In this document: positions 8,283-17,344 of the stretch, piece after piece | Position numbering within the stretch: position 1 is the stretch's first letter | Layout of the letters: every line of letters starts with the position of its first letter | Assembly: GCA_902826065.1 (NCBI GenBank) | Contig: CADEDM010000011.1 | Coordinates: forward strand, 13,149-50,631 | Direction of reading: 5' to 3' | Source of the DNA: an uncultured Acidobacteriota bacterium | GTDB taxonomy: Bacteria; Acidobacteriota; Vicinamibacteria; Vicinamibacterales; UBA2999 | DNA: 37,483 nucleotides | Position numbers and translations under genes: made by a program | The notes under the pieces: model-generated | Seen by the model: only the letters and a program-made list of their open reading frames with translations | What the model was told of the DNA's origin: nothing | Databases searched by the model: none

Positions 8283-9680
8283 ATGCACCTCGTGCGCCGC
8301 CTGCTCCTCGTGCTCATCGTCCTGGCCCTCGGCAGCGCCGCCGCCGCGTGGGTGCTCGCTGGACGCGAAGCCGGTCCCGCCATCGAGATCAAGAGTCCGG
8401 CGACGACCATCGGCCAGAAGAGCTCGATGGAGCTGTTCGTCGATGCGCCGGGTGGCACGCTGACGCGGCTCACCGCGACGCTGACGCAGGGCGATCAGAC
8501 GATGCCCGTGTTCGCGCTCGACGACACGGCGGGCAGCGCCGGCGACGTGAAGCAGGCGTCGTCCGACCGGCTGTGGGTGATTCGGCCGATCGGCAAGGCG
8601 ACGCAGCCGGCGCTCACCGGCGGCAAGGCCACGCTCACGGTCACGGCGGCGCGGCCGGTGCTCTTCGGCTGGCGCGAGGCCGCCACCACGGTCACGAAGG
8701 AGTTCACCGTCCGGCTCGAGCCACCGCGCGTCGCCGTGGTCTCCACGCACCACTACGTGAACCTCGGCGGCGCCGAGTTCGTGGTGCTGCGGGCCACGCC
8801 GCCCGACGTCGCGGCGGGCGTGACGGTGGGCGCGGTGTCGTTCCCCGCCTATCCCGGCAGTGCCGTCGGTCTCACGGACCCGGCGCTGCGGGTCGCGTTC
8901 TTCGCGCTGCCGTTCGACGCCGACGCGTCGACGCCGATCACGGTGTTCGCGCGCGACGAGGGCGGCAACGAGGCCGTGGCCGCGCTGGAGCGCCAGGCGT
9001 TCACCAAGGTGTTCCAGCGCTCGCGCATCCCGATTGACGACGCGTTCCTGGGCAAGGTGGTGCCGGCGATCCTGGCCAACACGCCCGAGCTCTCCGTGTC
9101 GGCGGCGGCTCCGGTCGACGCGTTCCTCACCGTCAACCGCGACCTGCGCCAGAAGAACAACGCCGCCATCGCGGCGCTCGCCGCGAAGACCGCGCCCGAG
9201 ATGCGCTGGACCGAGTCGTTCGTGCAGCTCGGGAACACGCAGGTGGAATCGCGCTTCGCCGATCACCGCACCTATCTCTATCAGGGCAAGGAGATCGACC
9301 AGCAGACGCACCTCGGCTTCGACCTGGCGTCGACGGCGCAGGCGCCGGTGACGGCGTCGAACACCGGCGTCGTCGTGCACGCGGCGTATCTGGGGATCTA
9401 CGGCAACTGCGTCGTCATCGACCACGGGCTCGGGGTGCAGTCGCTCTACGCACACCTGTCGTCGATCGACGTGAAGGACGGCGACACGGTGCGACGCGGC
9501 CAGACCATCGGCCGCTCCGGCACGACCGGGCTGGCCGGCGGCGATCACCTGCACTTCACCATGCTGGTCGGCGGCGTGCAGGTGAACCCGGTCGAATGGT
9601 GGGACGGGCACTGGATGGAAGACCGCGTGTTCCGCAAGGTGCGTGAGGCCGGCGGCGCGGCGCCGACGGCCGCGAAGTAG
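8283..9680 (+). CDS. M23 (LytM-type) metallopeptidase, membrane-anchored
   Basis: This 465-residue protein has an N-terminal membrane segment (residues 5-26), then a beta-rich region (about 35-300), and a C-terminal M23 domain. The zinc site is complete: H343 and D347 in HLGFDLA, and H424 in DHLHF, with H391 in YAHLS as the catalytic His. M23 peptidases cut peptide cross-links in peptidoglycan or act as activators of amidases. The product is probably periplasmic and tethered to the inner membrane, remodelling the cell wall. It starts right after a leaderless-type -10 motif and is followed four bases later by the cupredoxin-like gene, so all three plus-strand genes up to 11396 are probably one transcript. 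Confidence 0.88.
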   Translation: MHLVRRLLLVLIVLALGSAAAAWVLAGREAGPAIEIKSPATTIGQKSSMELFVDAPGGTLTRLTATLTQGDQTMPVFALDDTAGSAGDVKQASSDRLWVIRPIGKATQPALTGGKATLTVTAARPVLFGWREAATTVTKEFTVRLEPPRVAVVSTHHYVNLGGAEFVVLRATPPDVAAGVTVGAVSFPAYPGSAVGLTDPALRVAFFALPFDADASTPITVFARDEGGNEAVAALERQAFTKVFQRSRIPIDDAFLGKVVPAILANTPELSVSAAAPVDAFLTVNRDLRQKNNAAIAALAAKTAPEMRWTESFVQLGNTQVESRFADHRTYLYQGKEIDQQTHLGFDLASTAQAPVTASNTGVVVHAAYLGIYGNCVVIDHGLGVQSLYAHLSSIDVKDGDTVRRGQTIGRSGTTGLAGGDHLHFTMLVGGVQVNPVEWWDGHWMEDRVFRKVREAGGAAPTAAK

Positions 9681-11415: not shown

Positions 11416-13848
11416 TCAGGGATACAGCAGGTACGGCGCGCGCAGCCGCCGCCACGCGGCCTCGGCGCCCGCCCACGACGCGACGATCGCCGCCGGGTCG
11501 TCGCCGGCCTTCGCCCGCGCCAGCGCCACCGGCGTGCCAACGAGACGCGCGCTCGTCTTCACGTCGAACTGATCGCCGTGCAGCCTGTAGAGGGCCGACG
11601 CGACTTCCATCCCGACGCGCGTCGGCGGCAGCTGCTCGCGGTTGGTCACCACCATGAACACGCCCTGGCAGGCGACGTTGGCGTGCACGCTCGACGACGG
11701 CGTGAAACGCACGGGATAGAAGCGGATACCGGGCAGGTTGCGCGCGTTCAACGCCGCCGCCAGCCGCGGGCCGTCGATCCACGGCGCGCCGACCTGCTCG
11801 AACGGCTGGTCGGTGCCGCGGCCCACGGAGATGTTGGCGTACTCGATGGCGCCGATGCCCGGATACAGCGTGGCCTGATTCAGGTTGCGCATGTTGGGTG
11901 ACGGGTTGATCCACGTCAGTCCGGTCTGGTCGAACCACTGATCGCGGCGCCAGCCGTCCATCTTCACCACGACGAGATCGGTGCCGATCTTCCGCTCGGC
12001 GTTGAAGAGCTGTGCCAGCTCACCGAGGGTCATGCCGTGCCGGATCGGCATCGGCATGTAGGCGATGAAGCTGAGGAGATCGTCCTGCGCGAGCGGGCCC
12101 TCCACCTGCCAGCCGCCGATCGGGTTGGGGCGGTCGAGCACCACGACGCGGATCTTCGCCTTCGCGGCTTCCTCCATCACGTAGCCGAGCGTCGCGAGAT
12201 AGGTGTAGAAGCGCACGCCGACGTCCTGCAGGTCCACGACCAGCGTGTCGATGCCCTCGAGCATCGCGGCCGTGGGCCGGCGCGTCTCGCCGTAGAGCGA
12301 GTGGATCGGCAACCCCGTCTTCTCGTCCTTCCCCGACGGCACGTTCTCGATGTCGAGTTGCCCGCGGATGCCGTGCTCGGGGCTGAAGAGCGCCACCAGC
12401 GTCACGCCGGGGGCGCCGTGCAGCACGTCGATCGTGGAGGCACCGTTGGCCGCCACGCCGGTGTGGTTCGTGACCAGGCCCACGCGGCGGCCCTTGAGGA
12501 CCGCGAAGCCGTCGCGCGCCAGCACGTCGATGCCGGTGAGCACGCGCGTCGTCGGCACGCCGGGCACGGCGCGGCCGGGCTCGGACACGGCGCCGAAGTC
12601 GGTGCCGGTCATCGCGGCGCCGGTCAGCGCTTCTGCCTCCGCGCCCGTGAACGCACTGGCCGCCAGCGTGGCCACTCGCGCCCGCACGGCGCCGACGTCG
12701 CCCACGCCGTCGGGATGCAGTCGGCTGGAGAGAAAGATCACCCACAGCTTCGTGCGCGGGTCGACCCAGAGCGACGTGCCGGTGAACCCGGTGTGGCCGA
12801 ACGATCCGACCGGCAGGAGCTCGCCGCGATTGGCCGAAAAGCTGGTGTCGAGATCCCAGCCCAGGCCGCGCACCGCCGGCATGGCCGCCGGCGTCGCCGG
12901 CGACGTCATCTTCGCCACGGTCAGCGGCGACAGCACGCGCCGCGGCCCCAGCGCGCCGCCGTTCACGAGCATGCGCGCGAAGCGCGTGAGGTCGCGGGCG
13001 GTGCTGAACAGCCCGGCGTGCCCGGCGACGCCACCCATGCGGCGCGCCGTCGGATCGTGCACGACGCCGCGCAGCGGCTCGACGTCGGGCGCCTTGCACG
13101 GCCAGGCGTCGAGGAAGCGGCAGCGTTCGGTGGGCGCGATGCGGCCGACGCGTTCGATCGGCGGCAGGAAGCCGGTGTCGGTCATGCCGAGCGGCGCGAA
13201 GACCCGTTCGGCGACATAGCGCTCGAGCGGCAGACCCGACGCCTGCTGCACGATGTGCCCGAGCAGGAAGAAGTTGATGTCGCTATAGACGAAGCGCTCG
13301 CCCGGCGCCGACTGCGGCACCTCGTCCTTCGCCAGATCGATCGCCGCGTCGTAGCCCTTCCACGGCTCGCCGAGGTCGACGTCGGGCCGCAACCCCGAGA
13401 CGTGCGTGAGCAGGTGGCGCACGGTGATGCCGCCCTTGCCGAACTTCTCGAAGCCGGGCACCCACGTGGCGACCGGATCGGTGAGCCGCACCACGCCGCG
13501 CTCGACCAGTTGCATGACGGCCGTCGTCGTCGCGATGACCTTGGTGAGCGACGCCATGTCGAACACGGTGTCGAGCGTCATCGGCTCGGCCAGCGGCACG
13601 ACCGCCCGCCGTCCGTACGTCTTCTCGAAGACCACCGTGTCGCCACGGCCGACGACCACCACCGCCCCGGGCATCCGGCCGTCGGCCATGCCCTTGGCGA
13701 TGACGCCGTCGATCTCCGACAGCCGAGCTTGGTCCCAGCCGGCAGGGGTCGCCGGAACGGCGGGTTTCCGGGCGGATTGGGCCGCGAGCGGCGCCGCCGT
13801 GCCAAGAGCGGCCACCAGGAGGAGGACGGCCGGCGTCTTACTGGACAT
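11416..13848 (-). CDS. Fused serine beta-lactamase-fold amidase and NamZ exo-muramidase
   Basis: This 810-residue secreted protein (signal peptide MSSKTPAVLLLVAALGTAAPLAAQ) has two enzyme domains. Residues about 40-400 are a class C beta-lactamase-like domain: SxxK at S100/K103 (MASLTKV), YSD at 188-190, and HTG at 351-353 in place of KTG. Residues about 435-810 are a DUF1343/NamZ domain (GIDVLARDGFAVLKGRRVGLVTNHTG, FSPEHGIRG, DLQDVGVRFYTY, MRNLNQATLYPG). In Bacillus subtilis the equivalent AmiE (YbbE) and NamZ (YbbC) are separate proteins of one peptidoglycan-recycling cluster: AmiE removes peptide from MurNAc and NamZ releases terminal MurNAc. The fusion suggests both steps in one periplasmic enzyme. 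The substrate order is inferred. No ribosome binding site is visible upstream. Confidence 0.85.
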   Translation of the reverse strand: MSSKTPAVLLLVAALGTAAPLAAQSARKPAVPATPAGWDQARLSEIDGVIAKGMADGRMPGAVVVVGRGDTVVFEKTYGRRAVVPLAEPMTLDTVFDMASLTKVIATTTAVMQLVERGVVRLTDPVATWVPGFEKFGKGGITVRHLLTHVSGLRPDVDLGEPWKGYDAAIDLAKDEVPQSAPGERFVYSDINFFLLGHIVQQASGLPLERYVAERVFAPLGMTDTGFLPPIERVGRIAPTERCRFLDAWPCKAPDVEPLRGVVHDPTARRMGGVAGHAGLFSTARDLTRFARMLVNGGALGPRRVLSPLTVAKMTSPATPAAMPAVRGLGWDLDTSFSANRGELLPVGSFGHTGFTGTSLWVDPRTKLWVIFLSSRLHPDGVGDVGAVRARVATLAASAFTGAEAEALTGAAMTGTDFGAVSEPGRAVPGVPTTRVLTGIDVLARDGFAVLKGRRVGLVTNHTGVAANGASTIDVLHGAPGVTLVALFSPEHGIRGQLDIENVPSGKDEKTGLPIHSLYGETRRPTAAMLEGIDTLVVDLQDVGVRFYTYLATLGYVMEEAAKAKIRVVVLDRPNPIGGWQVEGPLAQDDLLSFIAYMPMPIRHGMTLGELAQLFNAERKIGTDLVVVKMDGWRRDQWFDQTGLTWINPSPNMRNLNQATLYPGIGAIEYANISVGRGTDQPFEQVGAPWIDGPRLAAALNARNLPGIRFYPVRFTPSSSVHANVACQGVFMVVTNREQLPPTRVGMEVASALYRLHGDQFDVKTSARLVGTPVALARAKAGDDPAAIVASWAGAEAAWRRLRAPYLLYP

Positions 13849-15008: not shown

Positions 15009-17306
15009 TCAGCGCGGAGGCGGTGCCAGGCGGCGCGTGGCCTCGTCGATCATCCGGTCGATGTTCGGCGTGGCCGGGTCGCGGTCGCGGGCCGTCTTCC
15101 AGGCGGCGAGCGCGTCGGCGAAGCGGCCGGCACGGGCGGCGACGACGCCGCGCACCACCCAGGGCCGGGCCAGCGAGGCGTCGATGGCGATGGCCGCCGC
15201 CGCGGCGCGTTCCGCTTCGACGTCGTTGCCGCGTTCGGCCAGCAGCCACGCCAGCTGCGACTGCTGGGGCGCCAGTTCGGGGAACGAGCGCAGGCTGGCG
15301 ATGAGGTCCTCCTGGGCGCGCGCCAGGGCCTCGCCGGCCCGCCCCGGCGCCGAGGGCACGTCGAGTGACAGCAGCGCCTGCGCGGCATAGGCCCGCACCA
15401 CCCGCGTGTCGTCGATCACGCGCGCCATCAGGACGGCGATCGCGCGATCGGTGCGGCGGCCCAGCAGCCCCAGCGTCCGAACGGCCTGGGCGCGGACCAT
15501 CGGCTCGGGATCCGACGCGGCGCCCAGGAGCGCGCCCTCGATGGCCGGGGTCACGACGGCGGCCGCGGGCGCGGCTGGCCGCTGCGCCGCCCGGCTGCGC
15601 GCCGTGGACGTCTGGCTCTCGACCGACGGGCTCTCCAGGGCCACGCCGCCAGCGCCGGCGAGGCGGCCGATGTACTCGGCGGCGCTGGCGCGCAGCATCG
15701 CGCCCTGCGCGCGGTCGACCGCCAGCGCGGCGAGCTGCGGGAGCACCGAGCCGTCGCCGGTGCCGGCGGCGTAGAGCGTCTTCGCGACGCCAGTGCTCCT
15801 GGTGCGCCGGGCGCCGTCGCCCCACCACGCGTCCATCTGTGTCGCTGCCCACTCGGGCGTCTTCTCGTCGTGGCAGGTCGTGCACGCGTTCGGCACGCCG
15901 AACGCCGCCGTGGTTTCCGGCACCGGTGACTGGAACGTGTGATCGCGGCGCCGCATCAGCAGCCGCCAGTTCACGTCGCTCATGTGGCAGTTGATGCAGC
16001 GGCTGCCGGCGGAATCGGGCTTGTGGAACGAGTGGCGCGTGAGTTCGTCGTCCGACCACGGCTGGCGGCTTTCGGCGGTGTCGGGCGCACGGCTGGTGAT
16101 GCGCGCCAGCGGCGACTGCGCGGCAGCGGGCGCCGCGGCGTCGGCCGGGCCCTGATGGCACTGGGTGCAGAGCTGATCGCCGGTGCGTCCGCTGCTGATG
16201 TCGACCTTCAACGAGGCGCCGTGGTTGGTCGGGCCGTGCGCCAGATGACAGCTCGTGCACGTCACCGCGCCGGCCCTAAAACAGCCCGAGAGCGTGAGCG
16301 CCTGCGTGCGATTGAAGCGATTCGGCCGGCCGTCGGGCCAGAACTCCCCCTGCGCGTCGAACTCGGGCAGCGGCTCGCTCACGAGGAACGGCAGCGCGTG
16401 GTCGGCATACCGCTCGCCGGCATCGAAGTCCGTGAAGACGTTGCGCTTGTTGCCGTGGCAGTAGCCACAGGTGTCGAAGGTACGGCGCTGATCGGCGGTG
16501 CGCGGCGAGAACGTGTGCAGCAACTCACCGAGCTGCCGGTTGTCGGCGCGCGAGCTGTAGGTCGGGATGCTCTTCGGGTCCTTCTCCCACGTCTCCATCA
16601 GCGCGACGTGAGACTTCCCCGGGCCGTGGCACGCCTCGCAACCGATGCCCAACTCGGTCCACGACGTCTTGTACGTGGCCGTCGCAGGCTGGTAGCCGCG
16701 ATCGAGATTCGTGGCGTGGCAGTTGAAGCAGTTGACGTTCCAGAGCTGGCGCAGGTCGTGCGCCTCGTCGGGAATCGGGGTGGTCTCTTTCCAGTCGAGC
16801 CATCGCCGGCCTTCGACGTGCCAGAAGATCGGCAGCACGTAGATGCGGCCGTCGGCCAGCGTCGAGAGGTACCCCTGGAACCGCTTCGAGCCCAGGGTGT
16901 AGTCGACGCTGAACGTCTCCGCGGCGCGGGTGCCGCTGCGCACGCTGACGAACGGCCGTCCGTTCTTCGTGCCGAACTCATAGCTGCGGCCGTGCGCCGA
17001 GAAGCGAGCGTCGCGGGTGAAGTTCCCGAGAATCGTCGCCTCGGCCACCGGCCGCGTCATCTGGATGTGCAGCGATGCCTTCCAGCGCGCGTACGTCTCC
17101 TGGTGGCAGCGTTCGCAGCTGGCGGAGCCCAGATAGTCGGCGGCGGATGACGTCGTGACTGGCGCCGCGGCCGGGGCGGCCACGGGCCGAGGCGGCTGCG
17201 ACGTTGCCAGCGCGCCGGCCGACTGCGTGCCCCCGCGCGCGGCGAGCCACGTCGACGCCGCGAGCACGGTGGCAGAAATCGCCAGCAGACGGGTGCCGAT
17301 GCCCAT
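15009..17306 (-). CDS. Octaheme c-type cytochrome with HEAT and TPR-like tail
   Basis: This secreted protein has eight CXXCH heme-binding motifs: CERCH, CFNCH, CEACH, CGYCH, CTSCH, CTQCH, CINCH and CTTCH. Counting from GTG 17324 they lie at about residues 70, 199, 229, 286, 356, 386, 443 and 481. They follow the layout of cytochrome c554-like multiheme proteins. After residue 500 come HEAT-like helices (DPEPMVRAQAVRTLGLLGRR, DDTRVVRAYAAQALLSLD) and a TPR-like end (AERAAAAAIAIDASLARPWVVRG). It probably moves electrons in the periplasm, with the tail for protein binding; redox partner and reaction are unknown. ATG 17306 is preferred over GTG 17324 because a TATCCT hexamer lies nine bases upstream; neither has a clear Shine-Dalgarno. 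Confidence 0.85.
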   Translation of the reverse strand: MGIGTRLLAISATVLAASTWLAARGGTQSAGALATSQPPRPVAAPAAAPVTTSSAADYLGSASCERCHQETYARWKASLHIQMTRPVAEATILGNFTRDARFSAHGRSYEFGTKNGRPFVSVRSGTRAAETFSVDYTLGSKRFQGYLSTLADGRIYVLPIFWHVEGRRWLDWKETTPIPDEAHDLRQLWNVNCFNCHATNLDRGYQPATATYKTSWTELGIGCEACHGPGKSHVALMETWEKDPKSIPTYSSRADNRQLGELLHTFSPRTADQRRTFDTCGYCHGNKRNVFTDFDAGERYADHALPFLVSEPLPEFDAQGEFWPDGRPNRFNRTQALTLSGCFRAGAVTCTSCHLAHGPTNHGASLKVDISSGRTGDQLCTQCHQGPADAAAPAAAQSPLARITSRAPDTAESRQPWSDDELTRHSFHKPDSAGSRCINCHMSDVNWRLLMRRRDHTFQSPVPETTAAFGVPNACTTCHDEKTPEWAATQMDAWWGDGARRTRSTGVAKTLYAAGTGDGSVLPQLAALAVDRAQGAMLRASAAEYIGRLAGAGGVALESPSVESQTSTARSRAAQRPAAPAAAVVTPAIEGALLGAASDPEPMVRAQAVRTLGLLGRRTDRAIAVLMARVIDDTRVVRAYAAQALLSLDVPSAPGRAGEALARAQEDLIASLRSFPELAPQQSQLAWLLAERGNDVEAERAAAAAIAIDASLARPWVVRGVVAARAGRFADALAAWKTARDRDPATPNIDRMIDEATRRLAPPPR

Positions 17307-17344
17307 CAGGCCGGAAGGATACACCGGCCCGTCGGGTCCAAGGG

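Follow-up and report, generated by a model that had tools for sequence, protein, structure and literature searches.

A fused AmiE-like and NamZ protein of an uncultured Acidobacteriota bacterium as a probable exported MurNAc-salvage enzyme, with three-domain relatives

The stretch of DNA analysed here, called the window throughout, is 37,483 nucleotides long and comes from an uncultured Acidobacteriota bacterium (assembly GCA_902826065.1, contig CADEDM010000011.1). On its minus strand, at 11416..13848, lies a gene with an ATG start that encodes an 810 amino acid protein in which an AmiE-like domain is fused to NamZ, as judged from the open reading frame, Pfam, the GC content by codon position and motif alignment. 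The GC content at the three codon positions (0.70/0.51/0.93) is consistent with a coding frame, and the open frame described in an earlier note on this DNA is real; the note gave no strand, and reading the plus strand would yield a different product. By eye, the N-terminus (residues 1 to about 23, 13780..13848, minus) is probably a Sec signal peptide, in keeping with the secretion that had been proposed. This is followed by a beta-lactamase-fold domain of family S12 (PF00144, residues 47-390, 12679..13710, minus; a complete match of 260 bits, far above the Pfam cut-off), which is of YfeW/AmiE-like lineage according to Pfam, NCBIfam, Foldseek and a tree of S12 domains. Motif reading and alignment place its SxxK motif at S100-K103 (13540..13551, minus), its YSD motif at 188-190 (13279..13287, minus) and its HTG motif, inside GHTGFTG, at 352-354 (12787..12795, minus); the first two had been located correctly, but HTG had been given as 351-353. 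Beyond a low-confidence linker in the AlphaFold2 model (residues 408-430, 12559..12627, minus) come NamZ_N (PF07075, residues 456-656, 11881..12483, minus; Pfam and Foldseek) and NamZ_C (PF20732, residues 661-809, 11422..11868, minus; Pfam). Both Pfam matches are complete and far over their cut-offs (283 bits against 26.9 and 146 bits against 25, respectively), and the two motifs by which a DUF1343/NamZ domain had first been recognised are present, with SPEHG aligned at residues 489-493 (12370..12384, minus) and QDVGVRFYTY at residues 541-550. By analogy with Bacillus subtilis NamZ, we propose E491 of SPEHG as the catalytic glutamate. Elsewhere in the window, 15009-17324 on the minus strand encodes a multihaem cytochrome-like protein with additional HEAT and TPR matches.

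An AlphaFold2 model built from 45 sequences has a mean pLDDT of 87.2 and a pTM of 0.55, with the linker below pLDDT 50, and thus the domains are confident singly while their mutual placement is not. A structure prediction had been proposed as a way of seeing whether the two active sites face each other, and with these values such an arrangement is unsupported. In Foldseek the NamZ domain matches the NamZ-family structures 4k05 (TM 0.90) and 4jja (TM 0.87, both over the target), which phmmer also recovers, and many S12 structures are matched too.

The motifs were followed through an alignment of 87 fused sequences including that of the window, 80 of which come from a search that used the fusion itself. 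S100 and K103 are intact in all but one sequence, which has a gap (86 of 87), Y188, S189, D190, H352 and G354 in every sequence, T353 in 84, and the PEHG glutamate E491 again in all 87. Such an alignment had been suggested earlier as a means of detecting a loss of key residues, and it finds the catalytic motifs of both domains intact. Among NCBIfam models, the S12 domain is best matched by PBP4B/YfeW (NF002968), at 157.1 bits and below the 385-bit cut-off, and it scores 51.9 bits with the class C beta-lactamase model (NF033085), below the 415-bit cut-off. In Escherichia coli, yfeW comes after murQ and murP.

A scan of named genomes with an alignment of the fusion confirmed at least 568 relatives, the best 80 of which were kept as named loci; as these were fetched with the fusion alignment, they are no measure of how frequent the fusion is. 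According to their records, the kept relatives are mostly Acidobacteriota, together with Verrucomicrobiota and Pseudomonadota, including Pseudomonas panipatensis. Burkholderia and Cupriavidus plasmids also encode the fusion, and the fused proteins there bear database names; on both plasmids (L036 and L191) it comes after genes for a polysaccharide deacetylase and a putative glycoside hydrolase. Within the window's phylum, NamZ_N is present in 232 of 297 sampled genomes and the fusion in at least 80, spread over 44 of the 166 genera and 21 of the 80 families. These 80 consist of 68 genomes with near-full-length single matches and 12 with split or cut matches, and all 12 of the latter, when fetched, had one frame with both domains; a further genome (G055), in which the fusion is cut by a contig end (L252), stands outside the 80. 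Whether such fusions are common in Acidobacteriota had been left open, and these counts answer that they are; likewise, the proposed search for PF00144 and DUF1343 in one protein finds the same fusion in independent assemblies. The architecture has been known in print since 2008, and among proteins of its phylum that of the window is nothing unusual. A survey of serine proteases of that year lists DDPept-DUF1343, with one example, under cell wall biosynthesis (PMC2605481). The domain order, in one chain, is that of the window protein, but in its accessible part the survey describes neither a mechanism nor a wide distribution and draws no connection with MurNAc genes (PMC2605481).

The ancestry of the two domains was followed in separate trees, those of NamZ being midpoint-rooted. 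In a FastTree tree of 148 NamZ rows, a branch with support of 100 unites 109 fused rows with 7 separate ones (six of family f35, plus L160), and the other separate NamZ proteins, from Acidobacteriota, Bacillota, Actinomycetota and haloarchaea, lie on the opposite side. A second NamZ tree, with rows added, is in agreement (68 rows, namely 54 two-domain, 6 three-domain and 8 separate). These trees fit one old fusion that would have been followed by later losses, and the NamZ of L160, which sits near the base without a clear placement, could have been separate from the start. In two loci (L230 and L231) a NamZ outside the fused clade has in its vicinity a separate S12 gene whose identity to that of the window is 52-53%, and thus the two domains do not always stay together.

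The S12 tree was built by a quick method, has long branches, that of YfeW included, and holds no row for B. subtilis AmiE. It contains a 37-row clade with an SH-aLRT of 98, made up of 24 fused domains, 2 fused to GH3, 8 encoded beside mur genes, 2 from haloarchaea and YfeW; outside it fall 17 rows from the remaining sampled S12 proteins of this genome, 4 further S12 rows and AmpH. Of the 27 PF00144 matches in the genome, 16 were fetched as loci for the tree, and the mur-cluster gene was included as well; the overlap of loci L203 and L214 means that two proteins of the genome appear in duplicate, and E. coli AmpC was omitted because its match was too short. The earlier reading of the domain as AmiE-like is supported by its place in the tree, with YfeW and the S12 proteins linked to mur genes and away from the genome's other sampled S12 proteins, and by the fact that the fusion tracks MurQ. 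On plasmids of Haladaptatus and Halorussus (L035 and L195), genes annotated as an AnmK-like kinase, a serine hydrolase, an uncharacterised protein, NamZ and NagZ are clustered, and the serine hydrolases are AmiE-like in the S12 tree.

MurQ was found over its cut-off in 76 of the 80 fusion genomes, four being without it, and in 31 of the 217 genomes that lack the fusion (Fisher p 6e-40 over the 297 genomes, with phylogeny ignored). The association is also seen at family level (counts of 16, 2, 9 and 53 families, p 9e-9) and when the largest fusion family is removed (49/53 against 28/214). Among the 217 non-fusion genomes, a link between NamZ and MurQ is not significant (25/152 with NamZ against 6/65 without, p 0.21). 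AnmK is not rarer where the fusion is present (35/80 against 66/217). Across the 297 genomes NamZ_N and AnmK are anticorrelated (both in 48, NamZ only in 184, AnmK only in 53 and neither in 12; by family 8, 59, 9 and 4, uncorrected for phylogeny), and we considered whether a replacement of AnmK by NamZ could be used in support of the fusion. This argument was dropped, since AnmK occurs in those 35 fusion genomes and the anticorrelation stems from the genomes without the fusion, where AnmK is found in 13 of 152 that have NamZ and 53 of 65 that do not.

Gene neighbourhoods were compared in loci 5 to 15.5 kb long, hand-picked from NamZ_N-positive genomes, with many of the fusion loci coming from family f29. 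In this sample 21 of the 36 fusion loci have murQ, murK or the symporter nearby, against 1 of the 20 loci with a stand-alone NamZ, and when murQ is counted by itself the figures are 16 and 0, respectively; four of the 40 loci fetched (L160, L168, L169 and L170) had no two-domain frame and were dropped. Among the 80 named loci, the best 80 of 568, tblastn at 1e-10 detects murQ in 16, murK in 9, a symporter in 24 and NagZ in 10, and in some of these relatives the NagZ appears, from its N-terminus by eye, to be exported. One locus (L066) holds a complete cluster of murK, murQ, symporter, a NagZ with a hydrophobic N-terminus and then the fusion. In the window itself, Pfam identifies an M23 peptidase gene 1.7 kb from the fusion (8283..9680, plus). 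As a member of the same system it was dropped, since M23 genes accompany the fusion in some relatives only (11/80 named loci and 5/40 genome loci) and the explanation works without it.

In the window's genome, the fusion and the mur genes are on different contigs. MurQ, cut by a contig edge, is encoded on contig C114 (325 bits, cut-off 168). After it come a nagB-like gene, whose scores fall short of the cut-offs of its families, and a gene for a kinase of the BadF family, for which the MurNAc/GlcNAc kinase 8zo3 is the top PDB match (E 5.7e-48); these are followed by the gene of a sodium:solute symporter and by a YfeW-like S12 gene. AmpG (358 bits, cut-off 350) is encoded elsewhere, as is NagZ (231 bits, cut-off 207), which shows no evident signal by eye and whose gene adjoins that of an S66 carboxypeptidase, away from the mur cluster; a second GH3 protein is a 766-aa frame on contig C256. 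AnmK and GH20 gave no match in this genome, the assembly of which is 97% complete. As both GH3 matches lie on other contigs, the window has no nagZ, and in this the earlier note was right; its statement needs the addition that NagZ is present elsewhere in the genome. No exported NagZ was identified among the two GH3 proteins, which, together with the lack of a GH20 match, leaves extracytoplasmic removal of GlcNAc unaccounted for in this genome.

We hypothesise that the fused protein is an exported, probably periplasmic, two-domain enzyme of MurNAc salvage, and consider this likely. The gene context gives good support to its probable place in this pathway. From the domains, motifs, lineage and context, we infer both activities, their order, their location and the substrate of the transporter, as follows. 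The N-terminal AmiE/YfeW-type domain would take the peptide off the lactyl group of MurNAc, and the C-terminal NamZ domain would next act on the non-reducing end of the glycan, cutting off MurNAc that no longer carries a peptide. The freed sugar would then be taken up, for which the sodium symporter adjoining the kinase gene is the candidate; the MurNAc transporter MurT of Tannerella forsythia is a sodium symporter. The sugar would be phosphorylated by the MurNAc/GlcNAc-type kinase, and MurQ would convert phosphorylated MurNAc to GlcNAc-6-P.

Parts of this route have known counterparts. The B. subtilis gene ybbC is presumably namZ, and YbbC was reportedly identified by Mueller et al. in 2021 as the exo-muramidase NamZ, which is said to need peptide-free ends and to use the PEHG glutamate for catalysis. 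B. subtilis AmiE (YbbE) and NamZ (YbbC) belong to the same two domain families as the window fusion, but they are two proteins whereas the window encodes one polypeptide, and in place of the B. subtilis PTS transporter the window's genome has a distinct kinase and, as the candidate for uptake, a symporter. In B. subtilis, amiE, nagZ and ybbC are described as lying downstream of murQ, murR and murP in one cluster (PMC5061867). For Tannerella forsythia, uptake of MurNAc by MurT, followed by MurK and MurQ, has been described, with periplasmic N-acetylmuramidases acting upstream (PMC10465942). That route shares with our proposal that MurNAc is freed outside the cytoplasm, imported, phosphorylated and then passed to MurQ; unlike the window, the accessible part of the account mentions no amidase-muramidase fusion (PMC10465942).

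It is quite possible, although we lean against it, that the enzyme mainly feeds on foreign peptidoglycan, such as that of soil necromass, rather than serving in the turnover of the wall of its own cell. A route by way of MurQ and a nagB-like product would be in keeping with feeding, as would the similar gene sets on haloarchaeal plasmids, the hosts of which are not known to have peptidoglycan; however, the AmpG of this genome and its NagZ without an evident signal suit own-wall recycling too. The two uses are compatible with each other, and both are compatible with MurNAc salvage. Another possibility concerns the S12 domain, which could be a different muropeptide acyl hydrolase, either a DD-carboxypeptidase or endopeptidase or an esterase that unmasks modified MurNAc, with NamZ releasing the sugar. 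S12 folds perform all these reactions, and esterases, such as EstG and 4ivi, stand high in the phmmer and Foldseek rankings, yet we regard this as unlikely, given that the lineage is found repeatedly near murQ, nagZ or NamZ, like amiE in B. subtilis, and that a carboxypeptidase would leave a MurNAc-bound peptide, which should block NamZ. That an error of assembly or sequencing merged two neighbouring genes into the fusion is hardly credible even for an assembly of 416 contigs, and is refuted by finding both domains in one frame in all 80 of the kept named loci (the best 80 of 568, several truncated at contig ends) and a near-full-length single match without inner stops in at least 68 of the 297 phylum genomes.

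The stand-alone NamZ proteins of the phylum often differ from the fused ones in the PEHG motif. Among 42 separate NamZ rows, 24 have PQHG (Gln) and 18 PEHG (Glu), and the fusions have PEHG. Those in which PQHG replaces PEHG (L007, L012, L030, L168, L169, L171-L177 and L179-L190) form a clade of stand-alone NamZ. A second NamZ fragment of the window's own genome (L126; genome G000, contig C287), which is outside the tree, is also PQHG.

The pathway appears in other joined forms. Two loci, from two genomes of the phylum, encode a NagZ-type GH3 domain fused to the same S12 lineage (PF00933 and PF00144 by Pfam; L144:6167-9106, plus, and L160:3791-6874, minus), and in L160 NamZ is a separate neighbour of the NagZ-S12 fusion. 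Such NagZ-AmiE-type proteins are, like that of the window, pairwise fusions of one pathway, but the partner of the S12 domain is a GlcNAc-removing enzyme rather than NamZ. The 2008 survey, in its accessible part, also lists GH3-DDPept (PMC2605481).

A further step is seen in the longest relatives. In all 17 of the fusion frames of at least 1300 residues among the matches listed (L215, L216, L218-L221 and L235-L245), a sodium:solute symporter is joined in a single frame to the AmiE-like S12 domain and to NamZ, and all belong to family f17; six of them were confirmed by Pfam. In one additional locus (L247) the three-domain frame is split, and another long frame that was fetched (L234, family f35, 1625 residues) has the S12 domain only. 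Read by eye, the junction of symporter and S12 domain resembles a signal peptide, with a basic segment, a hydrophobic one and often an ending similar to Ala-x-Ala. The six three-domain proteins in the NamZ tree nest inside the fused clade, beside L224, in which the symporter is the adjacent gene; it is also nearby in L223, of the same NamZ clade, and in L246, outside the tree. The symporter of the three-domain protein is apparently for MurNAc. We tentatively suggest, at rather less than an even chance, that the domains were joined stepwise, from separate AmiE and NamZ to AmiE-NamZ, of which the window protein would represent the middle stage, and then to a symporter-AmiE-NamZ protein that would strip, release and import MurNAc at one membrane site. 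The old signal peptide would survive inside this protein, either as an extra membrane helix that tethers the enzymes to the transporter or as a site at which cleavage would set them free.

The new point is this transporter-amidase-muramidase polypeptide in relatives of the window protein, which, like the clade of PQHG paralogues, would surprise a specialist; a literature search, with most subscription papers outside its reach, yielded no paper that we recognised as treating the three-domain architecture. It would be an unusual coupling of extracytoplasmic hydrolysis to uptake. Moreover, successive steps of one pathway appear to have been joined in different pairs, as NagZ-AmiE and as AmiE-NamZ. 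Together these proteins suggest a testable route of MurNAc salvage for a large and little-cultured soil phylum.
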